From Humidesulfovibrio sp. (GTDB lineage Bacteria; Desulfobacterota; Desulfovibrionia; Desulfovibrionales; Desulfovibrionaceae), in the NCBI RefSeq assembly GCF_030689645.1, contig NZ_JAUYFU010000086.1, forward strand, positions 1-64,000: 64,000 bases of DNA, written 5' to 3'. This document shows positions 26,057-41,172 of the stretch, piece after piece. The first letter of the stretch is position 1; every line of letters starts with the position of its first letter. A program made the position numbers and the translations under genes. Below the pieces are notes generated by a model. That model searched no databases and had not been told where the DNA came from. It worked only from the letters and a program-made list of their open reading frames with translations.

Positions 26057-26925
26057 ATGATGTAATTATGAGAAATCATAGGTTATGTTTGATAATTTGG
26101 AAAACTCTCCTGTCACAAAAAATTACATTATTGTTGTTTTTTGTACTTTTCTGTAGATATGTTCTTGCTCACTATGTTTGGTGTCACGCTTAACAGACAA
26201 AGATAATGCACTTATATAGTTCGATTTTATGTTCTAGTTATTAATTGTGCACACTAAGAGTAGTACGCTGGTTCAAGGTTTCTCTCCTTTTTTTGGTATA
26301 TTTTGATGTTGGGCTGCTTTTCCTGCTTCCGAATGGTGTGTGTCGGTTAATGTCCATAATTAAAAGGAATATTGAGAGCCTGCCTTGTGGATTGTCTCGA
26401 ATATGCAGGGGTGATTTTCCTGTTGATATTTTTTGTGACTATTACGTAAATGTGTAATGTGCGAGATCTGTTGCTTTGAATACCTCGAAATCTGTCTTTT
26501 GTCTGATTCGTGTTGTCTGCGCTCGTCGTCATCGTTTAAGCGTGTGGCGACATTTGTCTGTTCCGTTCGAACGGTAAGGAGTGCGCCTGCCGCAATGCCC
26601 CGATTTTTGTTCCCTCGCCGCGAGATCTAGGCTATCAGCCCTGAAAGCGGGGCGCGGGCTTGACTTCTGCGCCCTGAGCATCATTTTCCCATAGAGATGC
26701 AGCAACTCTGTGCCGCCAGGGGCATGGTGTGCTTTGATTGTGGGCCTCGCCGGATTGTTACGGGTATCGAATTGCTGAGATTTGTTTTTCGATATTCTTT
26801 GACGCGCTGAGCGTCGCGCTGGTTGGATGTGTCTCACGTATTTTGCGCTAGCCTGTTTCTTGGGGTTTTACAAAACCCTTTGGGTAGGATATTTAAAAAG
26901 TCAGCCAAACCCTCTGGAGGACATC

Positions 26926-27216
26926 ATGCTTGGCGAACTCTTTCAGCCCATGCATCTGCTTTTGATCCTGGTCATCGCCTTGTTGCTGTTCGGTCCCGGC
27001 AAGCTGCCGCAGATCGCCGCCAATATGGGCAAAAGCATTCGTGAGTTCAAATCCGCGCTTTCAGCGCCCGATGAAGTGAAGGTTGCGGCTCCGCCTCAGC
27101 AGGCAGAGGCCCAGCCTCAAGCGGCACAGCCTGCGCAGGCTGCTGCTCAGCCCGTGCAGCCCCCTCAGGCAGCTGCACAGGCAGAGGCTCCGAAGCAGGA
27201 GCAGAAGAGCGCGTAA
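26926..27216 (+). CDS. tatA: Sec-independent translocase TatA/E
   Basis: MLGELFQPMHLLLILVIALLLFGPGKLPQIAANMGKSIREFKSAL. Confidence 0.92.
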   Translation: MLGELFQPMHLLLILVIALLLFGPGKLPQIAANMGKSIREFKSALSAPDEVKVAAPPQQAEAQPQAAQPAQAAAQPVQPPQAAAQAEAPKQEQKSA

Positions 27217-30040: not shown

Positions 30041-30581
30041 GGTGGGCTCCCGTGTTGGGGTCATGAAGGTTGATCTTGCAACTTTGTACGCTGCCCCAAC
30101 GCAGCTGTAAAGCATCACGTCTGTCGCATAGGGGCACGTCCGCAGGCCTAACCAGACAGACAAGCAACCGGTGAGAAGGGCTTCGGAAGGGATGCCCAGG
30201 ATCAACCTTGTTTCTGCGCTTGGCGGGTTCCGAAGCGCAGTGCCGATCATAGGCGCTGCGCAAGCTCGGCAGGCAGCGCGTTGGTTGGTGGGAGTATTTC
30301 AACTTTAGGTTCTCAATGTAATCTAGGCTGTGCGCTGCCTCGTCATGTTGAAAGTCAGGCTCTGGTATTTGCGCATGCAGTGGTTCTGCTACTTCTGTCT
30401 TTTTCCGCTAGAAAATATGCGATACCTGTATTGCTATTGTTTGTTTGTCGGTATACCTTGGCTTAACGCTCTGCCCTCCGGCTGGGTACGTGTCGCCAGC
30501 CCAGAGTCTTGGCGCCATGCTGGCGCTGGAACAGGGGATGTCACCACAGCATTGCATAACTTCAGAAAGGAGGAACAGGAT

Positions 30582-31229
30582 ATGCCAGGCGATCTTGTGA
30601 ACATGTCGGATCAATTCAAAGGCTTGCCCATGGGGGAGCTCATTGGGGGCCCCCTTAACGCAGCCTGTGAAGCTCAGGTCAAGCTGGCTCAGGCTACGGC
30701 AGACTTCATCAAAGTTATAGGCTTTCTGCCACCGGCGGACAAAGGCTCCACCGATCCCTACAGCGGCGGCACGAGGACCGCGACTTTCAGGTTCAAGAGA
30801 CCTGTGGACAATCCGGCAGTCAAGCCTGGGGAGCCTGGATCAACAATGGAAGAGGAGGTCGAACTCTGCGTGCCTCTTCTCGCCATCGTCAAGGTGCCCA
30901 ATTTAAGCATCACGATGGTGGACGTGACCTTTGACATGGAGGTCAAATCCTCCTTCGCCTCAAAGGAATCCACAGATACCGAAGCCTCGCTTGACGCCGA
31001 AATGTCCGTCGGATGGGGCTGCTTCAAAGCCACTGCGAAGATCCACGGATCCGTGGCGAGCCACAAGGAGAACACCCGGTCCTCGGACAACTCGGCCAAG
31101 TATCACGTTTCTGTTCACGCCGAGGACAAGGGAATGCCTGAAGGCCTTGCCAGGGTGATGGACATTCTGCAGACCGCGTGTGCCCCCAGGGCCATCGGCG
31201 CGGCGAAGCCGGTTGCGGCGCTGGCGTAG
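30582..31229 (+). CDS. DUF2589-like protein A
   Basis: LPMGELIGGPLNAACEAQVKLAQATADFIKVIGF...VPLLAIVKVPNLSITMVDVTFDMEVKSS; RBS AGGAGG upstream. Confidence 0.8.
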   Translation: MPGDLVNMSDQFKGLPMGELIGGPLNAACEAQVKLAQATADFIKVIGFLPPADKGSTDPYSGGTRTATFRFKRPVDNPAVKPGEPGSTMEEEVELCVPLLAIVKVPNLSITMVDVTFDMEVKSSFASKESTDTEASLDAEMSVGWGCFKATAKIHGSVASHKENTRSSDNSAKYHVSVHAEDKGMPEGLARVMDILQTACAPRAIGAAKPVAALA

Positions 31230-31338
31230 AGCCAGGGTATTGCGCTGATGAGTGGAGCCAGAGGCACCTGACAACCCGAACGAGACACGGCCCGGGGGCG
31301 CTTTAAGGCGCACCCGGCGCCGTTGCAATAGAGGCGAA

Positions 31339-31596
31339 ATGTTCGACCTGACGGAAGTCAAATACGTTAAGCGCATCAAAGTGGGGAGTGATAACCCCGC
31401 GCGTATGTGCACGCCTGAAGAGATCGACGCCGCCACTGCGTTGCTCAACAGGTGTTTGAACGACACGCCAAAAGGGCACATCCTCGCCACCGAGAAGAGC
31501 TTCGCCGTATTGCAGATGGGGGAGCACCAGGTAGTGCTTCAGTGGATCGTCTACCATGTCGGGTTCCCGCGCAAGCCAATCTGGCTTGATGACTGA
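31339..31596 (+). CDS. small uncharacterised protein (85 aa)
   Basis: ORF MFDLTEVKYVKRIKVGSDNPARMCTPEEIDAATALLNRCL... in same orientation within the cluster. Confidence 0.6.
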   Translation: MFDLTEVKYVKRIKVGSDNPARMCTPEEIDAATALLNRCLNDTPKGHILATEKSFAVLQMGEHQVVLQWIVYHVGFPRKPIWLDD

Positions 31597-31612
31597 TTCT
31601 GCAGGAGGGCGC

Positions 31613-32260
31613 ATGGACAATAGGGCAACCTTTGACGACCTGCTTCAGGCGCTTCAGTCGTCTCTTGTCGCTGCACAGAGCACGCTTCGCAGGCGGCATG
31701 AGGAGGCGCTGCGCAACCTGAAGGGAGCTTCAGGGGTCGATGATTCGCTGGCACCTGTCTTTACCTTCTCCATCCCGCAGATGGGTGGCGATGCAAACAA
31801 GTATGATCAGTTTACATTGCCGGTTTCGAGTTTTCACCAGCCTTGCCGTCCAAATATCTCAAGATTGACGCTGTCGTTTGGATGCGAGCTTCAGGAACAT
31901 AGTCTTTTTGGGTCAAAACAAGGCTGCTCTCTGGTCATAGTGGATAAACCCGACGGAGCGTGGGGGCGCATGCAGCCGCAGAGAATGCAGATTGTCTTTT
32001 ACGGAACCGAGGATCCTGTCGGCCAAGTGATGGTCAACGGTGAGCTGTTTGTCGATATCCCCAGCTTGAAGACGGCATTGGTTCGCCCTGCCAGCATTGA
32101 ACAGAAGTGGCTTGTGTTTTCGTGGCTGCTTCGCTTGTTGCGCTGTCTTTGGCCATCACGCGGTTTCACCATGACCCCGGAGCAGTCCAGGCGGATCAAG
32201 GAAATTATGAAGCAGGACAGGGCCGAATCGTTCCTTGAAGATGAACTTGCGGTATTGTAG
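31613..32260 (+). CDS. DUF2589-like protein B (divergent)
   Basis: RBS GGAGG; segment LPVSSFHQPCRPNISRLTLSFGCELQE aligns by eye with PLLAIVKVPNLSITMVDVTFDMEV of protein A. Confidence 0.6.
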   Translation: MDNRATFDDLLQALQSSLVAAQSTLRRRHEEALRNLKGASGVDDSLAPVFTFSIPQMGGDANKYDQFTLPVSSFHQPCRPNISRLTLSFGCELQEHSLFGSKQGCSLVIVDKPDGAWGRMQPQRMQIVFYGTEDPVGQVMVNGELFVDIPSLKTALVRPASIEQKWLVFSWLLRLLRCLWPSRGFTMTPEQSRRIKEIMKQDRAESFLEDELAVL

Positions 32261-32294
32261 CCAGCAAACCAACCATACCATATGGAGGAGCTTC

Positions 32295-32738
32295 ATGAAG
32301 AGGCATAGTATCCTTTTGGGCTTGATTACTGTTCTCGCCGCCATCACGATCATTGCGTCCTCGGCTTCGATTGGATCAAAGTGTTACGCGGGCGTGGGGA
32401 ACTCCAAAGAATCAAGCAGCAGCTTCGAGGGTGTCTGGTCTGGCGTGACTGCTGGCGAAACGGGGTCGGCCATCACGCTGACGCTTCAGCCCGCAACGCA
32501 AACGTTGCGCTATGGAAGTCCGCGGGGCTGCGTGCTGACGCTGAACGATCCGGTCGACGTAGGCCAAGGCGTGCTGCGCTATTCCATCACCAAGTCAACA
32601 GGCGGGTACTGCAACAAGTACGACCAGGGCAAGCTTGTGTTGAAGACTGGTGGAGTTCCTGATGCATTGCGCTACGAAGTGATTGGCACGGACAAGAAGA
32701 ACGCGGAGCAGGGGGATTTGAAGCGGAGTGGAAGATAG
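32295..32738 (+). CDS. small exported protein of unknown function
   Basis: N-terminal signal-like MKRHSILLGLITVLAAITIIASSASIG; ESSSSFEGVWSGVTAGETGSAITLTLQPATQTLRYGSPRGC. Confidence 0.65.
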   Translation: MKRHSILLGLITVLAAITIIASSASIGSKCYAGVGNSKESSSSFEGVWSGVTAGETGSAITLTLQPATQTLRYGSPRGCVLTLNDPVDVGQGVLRYSITKSTGGYCNKYDQGKLVLKTGGVPDALRYEVIGTDKKNAEQGDLKRSGR

Positions 32739-32819
32739 CCCGGAGCGCCAGGGCCGGGCGATCAGATTGATCCAGACGAAGCTTCCAGGTCGGGGTCCAA
32801 CGAAAAGACAGGAGAAGGC

Positions 32820-33329
32820 ATGGCCAGCAACATACAACTGAACGATCTGATCGAGGCGTTGGCCGGAGCGGTCATAGAAGCCCAAGATAGCATTGAGCAG
32901 CATCAGATCTCTAATTTGCTGGGATATTTCGATGAAAACAATCGGCCCAAAAGCTTGGTTGTGAGGCTGCCGTCGATCCACCCCCAGGCCGAGGAGGGGT
33001 CGGAGGACTTGTACCGTGCACCGCTGCTGCCTCTTGTGTCTTCAAATATGCTGAAAATAAAAGATGTTGAGATAACTTTCGATGTGGACCTCGGTCAGTT
33101 CACCGAAGAGCCAGCCCCAGACCCCAAGCGGGTTGACTCGGGCGGTCAGGATGATGAGGCCTCGCGGAAAGGCATCTTCGTCGATATTGCTGGCAGCAAG
33201 CAGAGCAAGTCCGGCAGCATCCACGTCGTTTTGCGCGTGGAAAGCACGGAGCCGACGGACGGCGCCTCCAGGCTCATGAATCATTTGTCGCAAACCCAGG
33301 GCGTTTACAAAACGTTCAAGGCGGATTGA
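32820..33329 (+). CDS. DUF2589-like protein C
   Basis: APLLPLVSSNMLKIKDVEITFDVDL matches the core block of protein A. Confidence 0.75.
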   Translation: MASNIQLNDLIEALAGAVIEAQDSIEQHQISNLLGYFDENNRPKSLVVRLPSIHPQAEEGSEDLYRAPLLPLVSSNMLKIKDVEITFDVDLGQFTEEPAPDPKRVDSGGQDDEASRKGIFVDIAGSKQSKSGSIHVVLRVESTEPTDGASRLMNHLSQTQGVYKTFKAD

Positions 33330-33398
33330 GGCAATAACGGCAGCGTTCGGCAGATTTGAAACGTGCAACAAAACTCATGAAATGAAGGCGGCAAACCT

Positions 33399-34358
33399 AT
33401 GGCTGTGTTTGCGGTTGGCTCGAATGGCAACGAGGTTGGACTGATACAGCGGGCGCTCAAGGACGCGGGGCTTTTCGCCGGCTCGGTGGACGGGTTGTTT
33501 GGGCCTCAGACTGAATCGGCGGTGAAGGTCTTTCAAGCACAGGTGGGCTTGCAGGCGGACGGCAAGGTCGGACCTGCCACCTGGGCGAAGTTGTTTCCTA
33601 CGTCCACAGCGCAACCACAGGTGCCTTCGGGCGATCTTACCACGCGCTGCTTGGCGCTTACCGGATCATTCGAGACGAGCCGCCTTGCCCCGGACTGCTT
33701 TGCAGGGTTGACCGGCAACTTTGACGGTCAGGGCCTGAGCTTCGGGGCGCTCCAGTGGAACTTCGGGCAAGGGACGCTCCAGCCGTTGCTCAAAGAGATG
33801 CTCTCTGATCACCCGGAGGTTGCGTCTTCGATTTTTGGAAGCAACCTTGCTGCTTTGCAGGGGGCGATAAACGGGAGCAAGGACGCTGCGGTCGCCTTCG
33901 CCGTTTCAATCCAGGATCCGGCCAAGAAGGTAATCGCCAATCCTTGGAGGCAGATGTTTCAGACTCTTGGGCTCACGCCGGAGTTTCAAGCCATAGAGGT
34001 CAAGGGGGCTGCGGACTACTACGGCAGGGGCCTTCGGCTCTGCCAAGCGTACGGGCTCTGGAGCGAAAGGGGCAGGGCGCTGATGTTCGACATCAGCGTG
34101 CAGAACGGGAGCATTTCCGACAGCACCAAAGGGTTGATCTTGGCGGACTTCGGAAAACTTGATCCTTCGCTTTCGCCGGAGCAGGCCGAGCTTGCGAAAA
34201 TGCGGATTGTGGCGAACCGACGGGCCGAGGCCGCAAATCCTAAGTTTGTGGAGGACGTGCGGACCCGCAAACTTTGCATCGCCGAAGGCAAGGGGACTGT
34301 TCATGGCCTGGTTTACGATCTTGAAGCACAGTTCGGACTGGCGCTGCGCAAAGCCTAA
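33399..34358 (+). CDS. peptidoglycan-binding protein with putative lysozyme-like C-terminal domain
   Basis: PG_binding_1 repeat (GSNGNEVGLIQRALKDAGLFAGSVDGLFGPQTESAVKVFQAQVGLQADGKVGPATWAKLF) plus GSFETS...FAGLTGNFDGQGLSFGALQWNFGQGTLQPLL. Confidence 0.8.
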   Translation: MAVFAVGSNGNEVGLIQRALKDAGLFAGSVDGLFGPQTESAVKVFQAQVGLQADGKVGPATWAKLFPTSTAQPQVPSGDLTTRCLALTGSFETSRLAPDCFAGLTGNFDGQGLSFGALQWNFGQGTLQPLLKEMLSDHPEVASSIFGSNLAALQGAINGSKDAAVAFAVSIQDPAKKVIANPWRQMFQTLGLTPEFQAIEVKGAADYYGRGLRLCQAYGLWSERGRALMFDISVQNGSISDSTKGLILADFGKLDPSLSPEQAELAKMRIVANRRAEAANPKFVEDVRTRKLCIAEGKGTVHGLVYDLEAQFGLALRKA

Positions 34359-34461
34359 TGTCCTGGTTTTGCACGTTTGCCTTTCACTGCTCAAGCAGTC
34401 GGACCATTCATATTGCTGCCGCCTCTGACAGTGGCGCGGCTAAACCGTGAGGAGCTGCAAA

Positions 34462-35136
34462 ATGCCGAATTACAGAGCCAAGCAATCGTACACAGTGGGC
34501 AAGTTCCAGATGGATTTGTACCCATACGTCGCTGAACCGGAGAACCGTTTCGAACAAGGGAGCGCGCTTCAGTATGGGGCGGACTTCAAGGTGCGCTTCA
34601 GCAGACTGGGAACGCATTCCGACAAGCTCGGTCTGGTGCAGCTTATTTTTCCACAAACGCAAATCTTTCCAGCAACCGTCGTGGGTGCCTGGAACGTCGA
34701 CAAGCATGCCCTGGCCGTGGCCCCCATTACGATGGGGCAGTGTCTCTACGGCGATGATGAGCATCTTGTCGGTGTACACTCCGCCTACTACAATGGCGAG
34801 CACATGCGCAGCGTCGCGGAGAACGAATGCTGGCTCATCGACACGCCGCGTGAAATCAACGCCCGCTTCGCCGCAGGCGTTTTCTCCGGCGTAACCAACA
34901 CCAAATTCGCCAATTATGTGGTGGAGCTGAGCAACAAGGACGGCGTCATCTTCAATCAGGGCGTGGTTTGGGGTTATTCGGTCGTTCAGAACGCAATCAA
35001 CCCAGCCGTTTTCGACTTCCTTGTACAGGAACCTCGGGAGGTTCTGTTGCTGAAGACAGCGGAACATCGGACGGCAATGGCGACCTTCCTTGGCATCACG
35101 GAAACGGCCCTCAAAGGCTTCATCTCCGGGGGCTGA
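34462..35136 (+). CDS. uncharacterised protein (224 aa)
   Basis: Intact ORF MPNYRAKQSYTVGKFQMDLYPYVAEPENRFEQGSALQYGADFKVRFS...; RBS GGAG; family not recognised. Confidence 0.65.
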   Translation: MPNYRAKQSYTVGKFQMDLYPYVAEPENRFEQGSALQYGADFKVRFSRLGTHSDKLGLVQLIFPQTQIFPATVVGAWNVDKHALAVAPITMGQCLYGDDEHLVGVHSAYYNGEHMRSVAENECWLIDTPREINARFAAGVFSGVTNTKFANYVVELSNKDGVIFNQGVVWGYSVVQNAINPAVFDFLVQEPREVLLLKTAEHRTAMATFLGITETALKGFISGG

Positions 35137-35261
35137 GTCGTCCAGCGTCAACGTTGGTGTCGGCATGTGCTGGCGGCAGTGCGATTGCTCCTGAGCCGGT
35201 CCATTGCGAGCGGCGCCCCTTCTAGAGCAATTAGCCCAGGCGGTCAGTTGCGCGAAAAAGC

Positions 35262-35290
35262 AAAGCCCCGGTATGACGCCGGGGCCTTGC
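35262..35290 (+). terminator. rho-independent-like terminator closing the DUF2589 cluster
   Basis: GCCCCGG-TATGACG-CCGGGGC followed by cttgctcttgc. Confidence 0.6.
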
Positions 35291-35432
35291 TCTTGCTATT
35301 CACATTGCCGTAGCGGGGCTTTGGTCATCACATTCCCCGGAGAGCGGCGCTCTTCAGGGGGACTGGCGGAAGCGTCAACACTGCCGAGGCGAGGGAGGGC
35401 ATCCGTCTTTGCGTGCGCTGCCGCATGACTGG

Positions 35433-36065
35433 CTATTTGTTCTTCAGCTTGATTGCCCCGAGGCCGTTCACTCCCGTGGCGATGTCTTGGGCCAGCTTCC
35501 CGACCAGCATGCTCTGCGCTTCCACCAGCGACTCGTAGGTGGAGCCTGCGCTTTGCCGGTAATCGGCCCGGCCTCGGTTCAAGGTCCGGCTCTCGTGGTC
35601 GCGGATGTTCCACCAGGCCACCAGAACCGCCTCGCCGCCCAAGGCGCCGTCAAAGCGCACAACATCCACAATCACCCGCGCATCGGCGTCCTCTTCAGCC
35701 CGTCCGGGGACCACCATGGCTGAACCTGCGGCAAGACGGGCAACGTCCTCGGCGAGGATTCTGGTCAAGCTCTGGTCCAGCGGTTCGGCCCAGCGGTCGA
35801 ACTCGGCCAGGGAGACGCGCACGCCTTTGCTGCGGCTCACGATTTGGGGCCGGTCCAAATACTGGGCCACGTAGACTGGCCCCATTGCGATCACCGGTTT
35901 TTTGCCGCCGTCCGCCTTGGCGGAGGGAGCCGGGCGCGCTTCCTGCGACGGGGCCAACACATAGAAGGATGAGGACGCGCTATTGCCGGCGATGCACCCG
36001 GTCAGCCCCAGCGAGAGCGCCGTCAGGGCAAGCAGTCCAAAGGCGCGAAGCAAAGTGGCGTTCAT
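35433..36065 (-). CDS. ABC-type transport auxiliary lipoprotein (PqiC/DUF330-like)
   Basis: Lipobox LGLTGC; SSSFYVLAP...VAQYLDRPQIVSRSKGVRVSLAEFDRWAEPLDQSLTRILAEDVARL. Confidence 0.87.
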   Translation of the reverse strand: MNATLLRAFGLLALTALSLGLTGCIAGNSASSSFYVLAPSQEARPAPSAKADGGKKPVIAMGPVYVAQYLDRPQIVSRSKGVRVSLAEFDRWAEPLDQSLTRILAEDVARLAAGSAMVVPGRAEEDADARVIVDVVRFDGALGGEAVLVAWWNIRDHESRTLNRGRADYRQSAGSTYESLVEAQSMLVGKLAQDIATGVNGLGAIKLKNK

Positions 36066-36967
36066 TAGCGGTATTCTCCTTTCCCCTTGATCAGGGCCTC
36101 GGGGTGGCGCTCCATGTAATCGGCCATGATGCGCAGGGCGCGGGCCGCATTGCTCAACTCGTTGATGGCTTTTCTCAGGTCCGTCATGGTCTGGGAGTCC
36201 GGGGCCACTACGTTGTCCGCGTGCTTGAGAACGCGCTCCGCGCTGGCGGCAGCTCCTGAGATGGAGGTCATCGCCTTTTCCAGCGAGTTCCCAACCGGGG
36301 TCACCTGGGTGTTGATGCCGCGCGCCAGCACTTGCAGCTCGCGCAGGGTACCGTTGAGTTCGGTGGCCGTATTGGCCAGAACCGGCGAGTTGATGACCTT
36401 GTTCAGGCCTTCCACCGCTTGCAGCACCTGCCCCATGATCTGTTCAATCGGGATATTTTGGAGTGTTCTTGAAAGCTTGTCCATCGGAGAGGCCAGGGTG
36501 GGGATCTCGCGTTCATGGCTCTTGCCCCGCATGCGAAGCTCGGAGCCCGGGTGCAGGTCCAGTTCGATCATGAGCTGGCCGGTGACGAAGCTTTGCAGGC
36601 CAAGCTGGGCGCGCAGGCCGTTTTCGATCAGCTTGCTCACCATCTCCCCTCTGTTCACCGATTTGCGCCATTCCTCGGGCACCAGGATCTTGCTGCGGTC
36701 GATTTCCACCTCCACCGGGATGATGAAGCTCAGCGTTCTGGGATCGCCAATGAGCGTTATCTTGGTCACCGAGCCCACCTCCACGCCGCGGAAAACGACA
36801 GGCGCGCCAAGGTTGAGCCCCTTCACCGAGCCGTCGAAGTAGAGCACGTATGCATCCGGGGTTCGGAAGAGCCGGCCGGAGCCAAGCAGCAGAATGGCTC
36901 CCACCAGCAGGCCCAGCGCCCCCAGTACGAAGGCGCCCACCACTGTTTTGTTTGCCTGAATGCTCAT
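36065..36967 (-). CDS. mlaD: MlaD/MCE-family substrate-binding protein
   Basis: N-terminal TM then APVVFRGVEVGSVTKITLIGD; LRAQLGLQSFVTGQLMIELDLHPG. Confidence 0.9.
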   Translation of the reverse strand: MSIQANKTVVGAFVLGALGLLVGAILLLGSGRLFRTPDAYVLYFDGSVKGLNLGAPVVFRGVEVGSVTKITLIGDPRTLSFIIPVEVEIDRSKILVPEEWRKSVNRGEMVSKLIENGLRAQLGLQSFVTGQLMIELDLHPGSELRMRGKSHEREIPTLASPMDKLSRTLQNIPIEQIMGQVLQAVEGLNKVINSPVLANTATELNGTLRELQVLARGINTQVTPVGNSLEKAMTSISGAAASAERVLKHADNVVAPDSQTMTDLRKAINELSNAARALRIMADYMERHPEALIKGKGEYR

Positions 36968-37764
36968 ATCCTCTCCCCTTTAAGGCCGTCGGGTTGGTCA
37001 GAGCCGCCTCGGGTGAGGAAACGGACCACCTTGGGATCGGTCGAGCTTTTGAGGAGCTCGTTGGGGTTCCCCTTGGCGGTCATGGTGCGCGTTTCCACAT
37101 CGAGATAAATGGAATTGGTGCCAATGGCGAAGATGCTTGCGAGTTCGTGCGTTACGATGACGATGGTTGTGCCCAGATTCTGGCTCAGCTCGATGATGAG
37201 GTCGTCCAAGAGTTTTGCGCTCACCGGATCAAGGCCTGCCGATGGTTCGTCGAAAAACACGATCTCGGGGTCCAGGGCCATGGCGCGGGCAAGGCCCGCC
37301 CGTTTGCGCATGCCGCCGCTGATCTCCGACGGGTAGAAGTCTTCGAACCCCGCCAGACCCACGAGGGCCATTTTGTAGGCCACCATGTCGCGGATCTCCG
37401 CTGGCTTGAGTTTGGTGTACTGCTCAAGGGGCAGGGCCACGTTTTCGGCTAGGGTCATGGAGCTCCAGAGCGCTCCGCTCTGGTAGAGGATGCCCGCCCT
37501 GCGCATGACCTTGTCGCGCTCCTCGGGCGAGACGTCCCAGAAGCTCACCGGGCCGTACAGCACCTGCCCGGCGGAGGGGCGCTTCAAGCCCACCAGCACT
37601 TTGAGCAGGGTGCTCTTGCCGCACCCGCTGCCGCCCATGATGATGAACACTTCGCCGCGGCCGATGGTGAAATTCAAGTCCCGCATGAGCACGAAGGAGC
37701 CATACGAGACGGTGAGCCCGCGTACTTCGATGTGCGGCTGGGAACCTGTGACTTGCACGCTCAT
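36964..37764 (-). CDS. mlaF: MlaF-type ABC transporter ATP-binding protein
   Basis: Walker A GGSGCGKSTLLKVL, SEISGGMRKRAGLARAMALDPEIVFFDEPSAGLDP. Confidence 0.93.
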   Translation of the reverse strand: MSVQVTGSQPHIEVRGLTVSYGSFVLMRDLNFTIGRGEVFIIMGGSGCGKSTLLKVLVGLKRPSAGQVLYGPVSFWDVSPEERDKVMRRAGILYQSGALWSSMTLAENVALPLEQYTKLKPAEIRDMVAYKMALVGLAGFEDFYPSEISGGMRKRAGLARAMALDPEIVFFDEPSAGLDPVSAKLLDDLIIELSQNLGTTIVIVTHELASIFAIGTNSIYLDVETRTMTAKGNPNELLKSSTDPKVVRFLTRGGSDQPDGLKGERI

Positions 37765-38891
37765 ACGCCGATGACCTCGCACATCACGGTGATGAGGGCG
37801 GTGACCACGATGATTCCGATGATGCCGCTGACCACGGCAGAGGTGGTGGCGTCGCCCACGGCGGAGGAGCTGCGGCCGCAGCGCATGCCGAAAAAGCAGC
37901 CGGACAGGGCGATGACCACGCCGAAAACCACGCTGTGGATGAGGCCAATCCATACGTTGGCGAGACTGAGCGCCGCCTTGGTGGCCATGAGGTACTCCAT
38001 GGGGTTCAGGCCGAGCACTGTGACCCCAACGATATAGCCGCCAGCGATACCCATGACGTTGGCATAGATGGTAAGCAGAGGCATCATGAGCACCAGGGCC
38101 AGTGTGCGCGGCAGCACCAGGAAATCCATGGGCGAAACGCCAAGGGTGACGAGGGCGTCCACCTCCTCGTTCACCTGCATGGTGCCGAGCACCGCAGCGT
38201 AGGAAGCCCCTGTCCGGCCGGCCATGGCGATGCCGGTCATCACCGCGCCCATGACGCGCACCATGGCGATGCCCACCAGGCTGGCCACATAAATCTGTGC
38301 GCCAAACACGCGCAACTGCACCGCGCCGACAAAGGCGAGGATGAGACCGAGCAGCAGGCTTATGAGGGTGACGATGGGCAGGGCCGAGGCGCCGGTCTGC
38401 TGCATCATCAGCAGCAGGTCCCGCCAGCGGAAGTTGGCCCGGCCACGCAGAAAGCGGCTGAGGGAGATGGTGGCCTCGCCCAGGAACTCCAGAATATCGC
38501 CGAGCTTACGAGGAATGCTCAAGGAGGCCTCGCCCACGCGTTCCAGCAAGGAGGCGCGGATGGCGTTGCGAGCTGCGCCCTCGCGCTCGGGAACGGCGAA
38601 GGCCAGGGCGATGAGACGGTTCAGGCCGGCAGGCAGGCCGGACTGGTCCACTTCCATATTGCTTTGCCGCGCACGACGGATGACTCCCAGCAGAAAGATG
38701 ACAAGACTGCTGTCCCATTCATCGAGCGCCTCCGCCGAGAAATCCAGGGCGGAGCACCCTGCGGAGAGGGCCGCGTGGGCCTTGGCCGTGTCTGGGCTTG
38801 CCCCAAGGCTCCAGCGTCCGCCAACTGTGATGCGCATGCGATCGGGGGTGGGCTGGTCCAAGGATATGCTTGGAGGAGAGTGCGAATTCAT
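37761..38891 (-). CDS. mlaE: MlaE-type ABC permease with N-terminal STAS-like domain
   Basis: MlaE motifs (AGRTGASYAAVLGTMQVNEEVDALVTLGVSPMDFLVLPRTLAL) after an SPDTAKAHAALSAGCSALDFSAEALDEWDSSLVIFLL STAS-like segment. Confidence 0.9.
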   Translation of the reverse strand: MNSHSPPSISLDQPTPDRMRITVGGRWSLGASPDTAKAHAALSAGCSALDFSAEALDEWDSSLVIFLLGVIRRARQSNMEVDQSGLPAGLNRLIALAFAVPEREGAARNAIRASLLERVGEASLSIPRKLGDILEFLGEATISLSRFLRGRANFRWRDLLLMMQQTGASALPIVTLISLLLGLILAFVGAVQLRVFGAQIYVASLVGIAMVRVMGAVMTGIAMAGRTGASYAAVLGTMQVNEEVDALVTLGVSPMDFLVLPRTLALVLMMPLLTIYANVMGIAGGYIVGVTVLGLNPMEYLMATKAALSLANVWIGLIHSVVFGVVIALSGCFFGMRCGRSSSAVGDATTSAVVSGIIGIIVVTALITVMCEVIGV

Positions 38892-39678
38892 AGGGCCGTT
38901 CTCCCGGCAGGCCCGGCGGTGAGGGCCGGGCAGGGGGGGGCAGTGATCAAGGAGTGCGGGATGGAACTCTGCCAGTACGTTGCAGCGGCGGCGTTCGATG
39001 GCAAACCCGTGGCGAACGGTTTATTCATCACGGGCTCCTTTTCGTCGTATGGAAAGCGGCTGGAGCATTCATGAGACAGTGTGGGCAGTGTCTGGCCGTG
39101 ACTGAAAAGATGATGCTACTATGCGTACAGAGTTTACGTCAGCGCAAAGGTTATTGTCTATTATTATTTGTCGCTGCGGAATGTTCTGGTATAAAAAAAA
39201 CAGCGCCCTGTGGTCCAGCCAAGCCGATGAGCCCGGCATCCGTTGGTATTCTGCATCCATGCCGCGTCTGGGCGCTGATACGGTGGTGCGAAGCCGTTCA
39301 CAGCATTGGCAGTGGCGAGCGCACCTGTTCCCGCCGTGGTGCGCAGAGCCGAGGGCGTTACCGCTTCCCTGCAAGGTAACAATATCGGCAACGGTACGGG
39401 CAGGACCGTTGACGCGCCAACAGCGTAGGGATACGAGCGGCAGATGCTTTTGTGGCGCGGGCAGCTTTGTCTGCGGCCCTGAGAGCTCAAGCTGGTCTAC
39501 GGGCCGGATGACGACGACCCTTTCGGGCCGTTGGCGAGTCATCAAGCTTCACCGACGACACGCATCGGGACGGCAAAAATAAAGGCCCCCAGAGGTTTTC
39601 CGAGAGCCTTCAATGGTGAGGATTCCCTCACGAAACAAGTAGAGTGCTATCAAGAAGCCTGCAACAGGCCGATATTAT

Positions 39679-39755
39679 TGGTGCGCCAGGAAGGATTCGA
39701 ACCCTCGGCCAACGGCTTAGAAGGCCGTTGCTCTATCCACCTGAGCTACTGGCGC
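39679..39755 (-). tRNA. tRNA-Arg (anticodon UCU), CCA encoded
   Basis: GCGCCAGTAGCTCAGGTGGATAGAGCAACGGCCTTCTAAGCCGTTGGCCGAGGGTTCGAATCCTTCCTGGCGCACCA; loop CTTCTAA. Confidence 0.95.
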
Positions 39756-39822
39756 GCATTAGGGATCCCTTCAGTAATCAAGCTCAAGGGCGTGGTCAAG
39801 TGGCCGCGTCAATAAGGCCGCA

Positions 39823-41172
39823 GTGACGAACATCTTTTCATACTCCGATTTTCTTGCCCGGCTGGAAGGCCTGGGCCTGTTTCACATGGACCTGACCCTG
39901 GACCGCATGGCCGCTTTCGTGGCCCGGCACGGCCAGCCGCGCTTCCCGGTGCTGCACGTTGTGGGCACCAACGGCAAGGGCTCCACGGCCACGGTCCTGG
40001 CCGAATTGCTGCGCGCTCACGGCCTGCGCGTGGGCCTCTGTGTCAGCCCGCATTTCATCACCCCCCGCGAGCGTATTCTGGTGGACGGGGCCATGCTGCC
40101 CGAGGAGACCTGGGCCCGACTCGGCTCCAGGGTCTTCGAGGAGGCGGACGGCCTGGAACTGACGTATTTCGAGGTGCTTACCGCCCTGTCGGTGCTGGCC
40201 TTTGAGGACGCGGGCGTGGACGTGGCGGTGATGGAGGCGGGCCTGGGCGGCCGCTATGACGCCACAAATGTTCTGAATCCTGCGCTTACCGTGTTTACGC
40301 CCATCGGCATGGACCACATGCATGTGCTGGGCGACAGCCTGGAGCTTATCGCCATGGACAAGGCCGGGGCCTTGCGGCAGGGGGGCGTGGCCGTTGCCGC
40401 TCCCCAGGAAGCCGAGGCGTGGCGGGTGTTGCGCGGCAGGGCCCGGGAAGTGGGGGCGGATCTCATCGCCGCCGCCGAGGTGCTGTTCTATTCACGCGCC
40501 AATGGCCGCGTGCAGCCCGGCCCCCTGGCGACCCGGGGAAAGAAGCGCTTCGTGCGGCCCATGACCGGCATGTGGCTCTCGCTGCCGGGCGCGCACCAGG
40601 AACTGAACGCCCGCGTGGCCCTGGCCGCGTTCCATGTCTGGGCTACATCCCTTCGCCTGCCCATCATTGAGGACGCCTGCCGCGAGGCCTTTGCGCGGGC
40701 CTTTATCCCTGGCCGCATGCAGATCATTGCCGATGCGCCGGGCCTGCCTCCGCAGTTGATCCTGGATGGCGGACACAACGCTCACGGCTTGGCGGCTCTC
40801 AAAGCAGCGCTGGAGGCCGACGGCATCCGCCCTGCCGCCGTTGTTTTCGGCTGCCTGCGCGACAAGCCTCTGGACAAAATGCTTCCGCTTGTGCGCGAAA
40901 TCGCCGGGGACGCCCCGGTCTACGCCGTGGGCATTCCGTCCTGCCCGCGCGCCTGCGAGCCGGGCGAGCTGGCCGAGCTGCTGGGGCCGGACGTGCTCCC
41001 GGCTGCGGACGTGCACGCGGCTCTGAATCTGCTGGGCGGCGCGGCAGACCCTGTGCTGGTCTGTGGTTCCTTGTATTTGCTGGGCGAGTTTTATACAAAG
41101 CACCCTCGGCTGCTGGAACGCCCTGAACGCCCTGAGCGCGAGGAACGCGGCGGCAGCCCCCGGAGGTCATAG
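39823..41172 (+). CDS. folC: bifunctional folylpolyglutamate/dihydrofolate synthase
   Basis: VVGTNGKGSTATVLAELLRAHGLRVGLCVSPHFITPRERI; MEAGLGGRYDATNVL. Confidence 0.94.
   Translation: MTNIFSYSDFLARLEGLGLFHMDLTLDRMAAFVARHGQPRFPVLHVVGTNGKGSTATVLAELLRAHGLRVGLCVSPHFITPRERILVDGAMLPEETWARLGSRVFEEADGLELTYFEVLTALSVLAFEDAGVDVAVMEAGLGGRYDATNVLNPALTVFTPIGMDHMHVLGDSLELIAMDKAGALRQGGVAVAAPQEAEAWRVLRGRAREVGADLIAAAEVLFYSRANGRVQPGPLATRGKKRFVRPMTGMWLSLPGAHQELNARVALAAFHVWATSLRLPIIEDACREAFARAFIPGRMQIIADAPGLPPQLILDGGHNAHGLAALKAALEADGIRPAAVVFGCLRDKPLDKMLPLVREIAGDAPVYAVGIPSCPRACEPGELAELLGPDVLPAADVHAALNLLGGAADPVLVCGSLYLLGEFYTKHPRLLERPERPEREERGGSPRRS

Follow-up and report, generated by a model that had tools for sequence, protein, structure and literature searches.

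Clusters of holin, endolysin and spanin genes located outside phages are known as type 10 secretion systems (T10SS) (PMC10847048, PMC9527704), and lytic release of cytoplasmic assemblies is among their described outcomes (PMC10847048). The proteins of the DUF2589 family have received little attention: a literature search that excluded preprints and most subscription journals returned a single passing mention, concerning the lactate-induced genes AF0414-AF0417 of Archaeoglobus fulgidus (PMC3949148). Here we describe a cluster of seven genes, designated A, S85, B, X, C, PG and O, located at positions 30582-35136 (+ strand) of a 64,000-nt stretch of Humidesulfovibrio sp. DNA (contig NZ_JAUYFU010000086.1), hereafter called the window in its full length. 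A, B and C are DUF2589-type proteins, S85 is a small protein of 85 amino acids, X is exported and PG is an enzyme of phage-endolysin type. Comparison with related loci revealed that the DUF2589 core is constant while the peptidoglycan hydrolase next to it differs in family between clades.

Like a T10SS, the cluster is a chromosomal, regulated operon encoding a phage-type endolysin devoid of signal peptide, and a holin is found in the Luteibacter-type loci. The N terminus of PG is not hydrophobic, as predicted for the signal-less endolysin of a T10SS. The cluster differs from a T10SS in its constant core, composed of the DUF2589 proteins A, B and C and of S85, in an enzyme family that varies by clade, and in its gene content, with no holin in the window and most other loci and no recognisable spanin. 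Since the endolysin was found but neither the holin nor the spanin, we do not classify the window cluster as a T10SS, though it may work like one. The lysins belong to the same families as phage endolysins (GH108, GH19, PF11860, GH24 and the phrog_30036 type) and likewise carry no signal peptide but, unlike them, they sit in a conserved bacterial operon, among non-phage core genes and bacterial regulators.

To define the distribution of the operon, one genome per species was scanned, yielding 245 relatives of A in genera that include Xanthomonas, Luteibacter, Massilia, Paraburkholderia and Pseudomonas. The loci of 80 of the 245 were fetched and combined with genome, plasmid and viral loci into a set of 97, in which 81 distinct loci carry both A and S85. 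Counts were derived from profile searches of stop-to-stop open reading frames (ORFs); the output of a simple caller was not used for them, since it reported false antisense genes where GC is high (family F2), and short "d" labels overlapping S85 were disregarded as shadow frames produced by a drift of the B profile. S85, which has no relative in the PDB, is present in 86 of the 97 loci; a C-type gene adjoins A in most of them, and B-like genes occur in many. The usual gene order is C-A-S85-B-X, with A-S85-B-X-C-PG in the window and its relatives and C-S85-B-A in many Burkholderiales. Loci with A and S85 span Desulfobacterota, Xanthomonadaceae, Burkholderiales, Pseudomonas, Azospirillum and others. 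Neighbourhood conservation, on which the sequence-only reading of the window had made its interpretation depend, proved strong, and the operon is well supported as a conserved single functional unit. In whole-genome samples DUF2589 is rare (10 of 345 genomes in the phylum of the window, 19 of 297 in that of a Cyclobacterium genome and 9 of 399 in that of a Luteibacter genome), so the operon is an accessory system and not a housekeeping one.

Analysis of the three paralogues revealed that A and C score 171.9 and 111.9 bits against PF11655, for which the Pfam gathering cut-off is 23, and are thus members of the family. B has no Pfam match; its profile aligned with that of C with an hhalign probability of 97.8 (E=8.7e-13), and the profiles of A and C matched with a probability of 98.0. 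These comparisons show from sequence that A, B and C, though diverged, belong to a single superfamily, DUF2589, and the earlier designation of B as DUF2589-like was correct although Pfam is silent. In Xanthomonas phaseoli, the C gene (L051:7384-7995) was matched in two parts whose frames differ, perhaps through a frameshift or an error of sequencing.

Clustering of all neighbours showed that the recurring non-core gene encodes a different peptidoglycan hydrolase by lineage: a GH108 enzyme with PG_binding_3 in Xanthomonas, Luteibacter and Roseateles, a GH19 enzyme in Burkholderiales, Pseudomonas and Azospirillum, a PF11860 N-acetylmuramidase in Desulfovibrio cuneatus and on a plasmid of bacterium Smac51, and a PG_binding_1 + phrog_30036 enzyme in the window and related Deltaproteobacteria. 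Profiles of these four enzymes matched in 64 of the 81 distinct loci, always on the strand of A and between -2.3 and +3.1 kb from it. They detected 69 ORFs in 596 kb around A versus none in 838 kb of flank, a contrast that arises partly by construction, the profiles having been built from genes near A, and that is valid for these subfamilies rather than for all lysins. Additional classes were a GH24 phage lysozyme, in L105 and by eye in L176, and an Amidase_3 in L160. Of four genomes with A and S85 in a sample drawn separately, three had such an enzyme (GH19 in L175, GH24 in L176, Amidase_3 in L160); the fourth, L174, had none, and its S85 sequence is the same as that of L112, already in the set.

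Placed on the tree of A, the enzyme type changes six times, the minimum for six labels being five, and lysins therefore seem to have become associated with the operon on several occasions. These enzyme families cleave glycan or amide bonds, so the purpose they share would be the opening of the wall and not the formation of one product. A signal-less phage-type lysin is well supported as a recurrent part of the operon in wall-bearing bacteria, as is the link between the operon and wall breaching. The wall-acting enzyme read from the window alone was hence borne out, though not as a single enzyme: it is of phage-endolysin type and differs by clade, the constant theme being the breach of peptidoglycan. 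Downstream of A-S85-C and the Amidase_3 gene, L160 also encodes a 599-amino-acid protein (L160:8576-11314) that by eye resembles the DUF2235-type lipases known as secreted effectors, and that is a possible cargo.

The window's own enzyme, PG, combines an N-terminal PG_binding_1 domain (E=9.6e-20) with a C-terminal region of 240 residues matching phrog_30036 (E=1e-28). The latter shares about 35% identity over the whole domain with proteins of the Thermus phages MN1, phiYS40 and TMA (best E=1e-31), which some of the phage records annotate as peptidoglycan-binding. The Glu of an SFE motif and the Asp of an FDGQ motif are invariant across the bacterial and phage sequences of this domain, which makes them candidate catalytic residues. 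Searched against the PDB, the PG profile was significant for the peptidoglycan-binding part alone, and no solved structure was found for the C-terminal domain; a match of that domain to a chitosanase (E=0.44) was at chance level.

A simple hydropathy test on inferred starts detected no hydrophobic N-terminal core in any of the 69 enzymes. With no signal peptide recognised, their access to the wall would require assistance. Membrane proteins are encoded close by: in 40 loci, an ORF with a transmembrane helix lies between S85 and X. Most of these ORFs encode a small protein in which the helix is C-terminal and is accompanied by a motif like LxLSxxExxxLRxI. In four loci (L055, L084, L085 and L105), the C-terminal transmembrane helix is on B itself. 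The B protein of the window ends in FTMTPEQSRRIKEIM, which is like the motif of the tail-anchored protein, and has only a weakly hydrophobic stretch and no strong transmembrane helix. A holin (phrog_2359, E=5.9e-12) is added in 12 Luteibacter-type loci; in each of two Luteibacter strains the operon is present as two diverged copies (L041/L094 and L042/L095), every copy with its own GH108 enzyme and holin. Members of the X family, found in 57-58 loci, have three invariant residues (G50, C79 and C106) and many of them, the window copy included, a signal-like N terminus; X appears to be soluble and exported, and a strict lipobox is absent by eye. A match of X to a pyocin tube (E=0.19) was at chance level. 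The neighbouring regulators vary by lineage, comprising LuxR-type response regulators, AraC-like proteins (by eye) and OmpR-type winged-helix proteins.

That a constant core is accompanied by clade-specific, non-homologous lysins suggests that it serves in part to breach the wall, and a domain of unknown function thereby gains a role that can be tested directly. We tentatively favour, at somewhat below even chances, a horizontally spread bacterial module that breaches the cell envelope from inside in an endolysin-dependent manner, with DUF2589 proteins replacing or assisting the holin. A, C, B and S85 would assemble in the cytoplasm into a complex that the tail-anchored subunit tethers to the inner membrane; this subunit is separate in many lineages and fused to B in some, the B of the window keeping the motif and the weakly hydrophobic stretch. 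On expression of the regulated operon, this complex would gate or trigger the passage of the signal-less endolysin into the periplasm, where the enzyme would cut the peptidoglycan, X would act in the periplasm, and the outcome would be controlled lysis or a local opening that releases cytoplasmic contents. It is possible, with a little less assurance, that DUF2589, S85 and the tail-anchored subunit constitute an undescribed non-holin gate that passes several unrelated, folded, signal-less endolysins to the periplasm in Proteobacteria and Desulfobacterota. If true, this would be a non-holin inner-membrane route for folded proteins and would add a new kind of programmed lysis or release.

Several observations weigh against a gate for endolysins. 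First, the window cluster has no small ORF with multiple transmembrane helices, no match to a holin profile and no spanin, for which no profile appeared among the PHROG matches of its seven proteins. Secondly, 17 of the 81 loci gave no match to the four enzyme profiles; among them, one has a GH24 enzyme and two are truncated by contig ends. Thirdly, fold evidence for a pore is absent from the AlphaFold models of A and C and from the search of the PDB with C. The model of A is unreliable (predicted local distance difference test, pLDDT, 56; predicted template modelling score, pTM, 0.40) and that of C moderate (pLDDT 73, pTM 0.55); C gave no PDB match below E=0.001, and matched two viral models (E=5e-5 and 4e-4) that are presumably DUF2589 homologues. 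One of the structure-prediction alignments was built without plasmid and phage rows. A, S85 and X had no significant match in the PDB, by sequence or by profile. Residues 123-172 of A, modelled at low confidence, resemble, by eye, a long amphipathic beta-hairpin rich in Ser and Thr, which recalls the stems of pore-forming proteins; we do not count this as evidence. Fourthly, a second DUF2589 layout occurs in Bacteroidota and others (L028-L031, L146-L154, L157, L161 and L177), composed of A, a protein of 225-390 amino acids (F41) and often one of 190 (N2), in which none of the four profiled lysins was found. Archaeoglobus has no murein. Given DUF2589 in this organism and in the enzyme-free Bacteroidota loci, endolysin gating cannot be the whole role of the family. 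The core would act at membranes or as an assembly without needing the enzyme itself, and a membrane gate, a released particle and an envelope machine all fit this behaviour.

The released particle is the strongest of the other explanations, though somewhat unlikely: the DUF2589 proteins would themselves be the cargo, a cytoplasmic particle or polymer freed by endolysin lysis, with or without a holin, in the manner of tailocins or Tc toxins. Three diverged paralogues of one beta-rich superfamily per operon, the lack of signal peptides on A and C, the holin of some loci and the T10SS precedent for lytic release of cytoplasmic assemblies (PMC10847048) are in its favour. As in tailocins, an endolysin lies beside possible structural subunits; unlike in tailocins, PHROG and Pfam scans showed no sheath, tube, baseplate or fibre genes, and C found no fold match in the PDB. 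Many loci moreover keep a membrane-anchored subunit and an exported X, needless for a released particle; no gene for receptor binding or for a toxin recurs throughout, and in most loci no holin is seen.

We consider a permanent structure or channel across the envelope unlikely. The enzyme would then only perforate the sacculus locally and so admit the DUF2589 assembly to the periplasm, with no lysis, much as dedicated lytic enzymes open the sacculus for flagella and for type III, IV and VI secretion. The tail-anchored subunit and the periplasmic X agree with such a channel, and DUF2589 in murein-less Archaeoglobus and in enzyme-free Bacteroidota operons would be expected if the wall cutter only aids. 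The enzymes of envelope-spanning machines are, however, usually exported, whereas those found here are of phage-endolysin type and carry no signal peptide; a conserved outer-membrane component is lacking, and Luteibacter loci carry holins. An antagonism module, with the endolysin as weapon or suicide toxin and X as the periplasmic inhibitor protecting the producer, is improbable: X is inhibitor-like in being small, exported, fast-evolving and endowed with two invariant cysteines, but it stays one family while the enzyme families are unrelated, which is unexpected of a specific inhibitor, it was not found in the GH19-carrying Burkholderiales loci, and no known inhibitor matches it. Least probable is a decayed prophage lysis cassette, which phage-type enzymes, low GC and a variable insertion site might recall, since one core is combined with different enzymes in different classes and phyla, purifying selection acts on all genes, the adjacent regulators are bacterial-type, and no phage structural, replication or integration genes were seen adjoining the cluster in the window, in agreement with the sequence-only reading. 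The multi-gene system of DUF2589 paralogues, an exported factor and a wall-acting enzyme outlined by that reading is retained, whereas the structural subunits of a secreted assembly and the antagonism that it suggested are kept as suggestions only.

Regarding the origin of the window copy, the GC content of the cluster is 56.8% versus 62.6% in the rest of the window, where the lowest other 4.5-kb stretch sampled has 56.9%. The cheV-folC junction (window 30250-39823) holds the DUF2589 cluster and an Mla/Pqi-type lipid-transport operon; in the same genus, folC directly follows cheV (0.27 kb) in G040, a genome with no DUF2589, and about 3.5 kb of different DNA occupies the junction in G297. These observations fit horizontal gain at a variable site. 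DUF2589 genes also occur in phage records: two metagenomic viral contigs of tailed phages (L114 and L115) carry a C-A pair with a tail-fibre-like gene on one side and, on the other, a 79-amino-acid protein that is weakly holin-like (phrog_1296, E=1e-3), and a 4-kb faecal "Bacteriophage sp." record encodes A-F41-A followed by a muramidase with PG_binding_1. Two Vibrio plasmids, pFP31 (L020) and pVDT1 (L021), carry a DUF2589 pair with S85; their neighbours are annotated as secreted metallopeptidase or glycosyltransferase toxin domains, plus an ABC exporter, and no profiled enzyme was found there.

Table 1. Positions in the window and properties of the genes of the DUF2589 cluster and of the hairpin that follows it (dN/dS, ratio of nonsynonymous to synonymous substitution rates; aa, amino acids).
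Feature	Position	Strand	Description
A	30582..31229	+	DUF2589 protein, 215 aa; PF11655 E=1.6e-50; dN/dS 0.03
S85	31339..31596	+	85-aa core protein; motif GEHQxVxQxxxYHxGFxRKP; in 86/97 loci
B	31613..32260	+	Diverged DUF2589-superfamily protein; hhalign to C; C-terminal motif FTMTPEQSRRIKEIM
X	32295..32738	+	Small exported protein (signal-like N terminus); two family-invariant cysteines
C	32820..33329	+	DUF2589 protein, 169 aa; PF11655 E=4.7e-32
PG	33399..34358	+	Endolysin-type, no signal peptide; PG_binding_1 (PF01471) + C-terminal phrog_30036 domain
O	34462..35136	+	224-aa lineage-specific orphan; system membership uncertain
GC-rich hairpin	35265..35285	+	Possible terminator

All seven ORFs were recovered in the single orientation first described (Table 1). 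Compared with the nearest relative, the Humidesulfovibrio locus L034, dN/dS is lowest for A, followed by S85 and C (0.07 each) and PG (0.17), and is higher for B (0.27), O (0.29) and X (0.52). As all values are below 1, indicating purifying selection, the seven genes are genuine; the core A, C and S85 is very strongly constrained, A the most, and B and X are fast-evolving. S85, B, X and O had no significant match in Pfam, NCBIfam or PADLOC. No PADLOC model of a known anti-phage defence system matched any of the seven proteins significantly (best E=0.035); PHROG gave no phage structural match other than an endolysin profile filed under head and packaging, and an Rfam scan gave no significant match. 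O has one homologue among the fetched loci, in L034 (57% identity), and none in 296 other genomes or in the plasmids and phages searched; it is genuine but lineage-specific, and its membership in the system is uncertain.

The flanks were, as earlier described, ordinary genes on the minus strand: by their translations they read as chemotaxis, lipid-transport and housekeeping genes, with cheV/Hpt upstream and PqiC/MlaD/MlaF/MlaE-like genes downstream. The hairpin said to close the cluster is present, but its T tail is weak and hits of this kind are no commoner than in shuffled sequences. Further upstream, an AT-rich stretch (26080-26550, mean GC down to 45%) without a convincing gene precedes an ammonium transporter gene, and is followed by a TatA-like ORF at 26827-27216.

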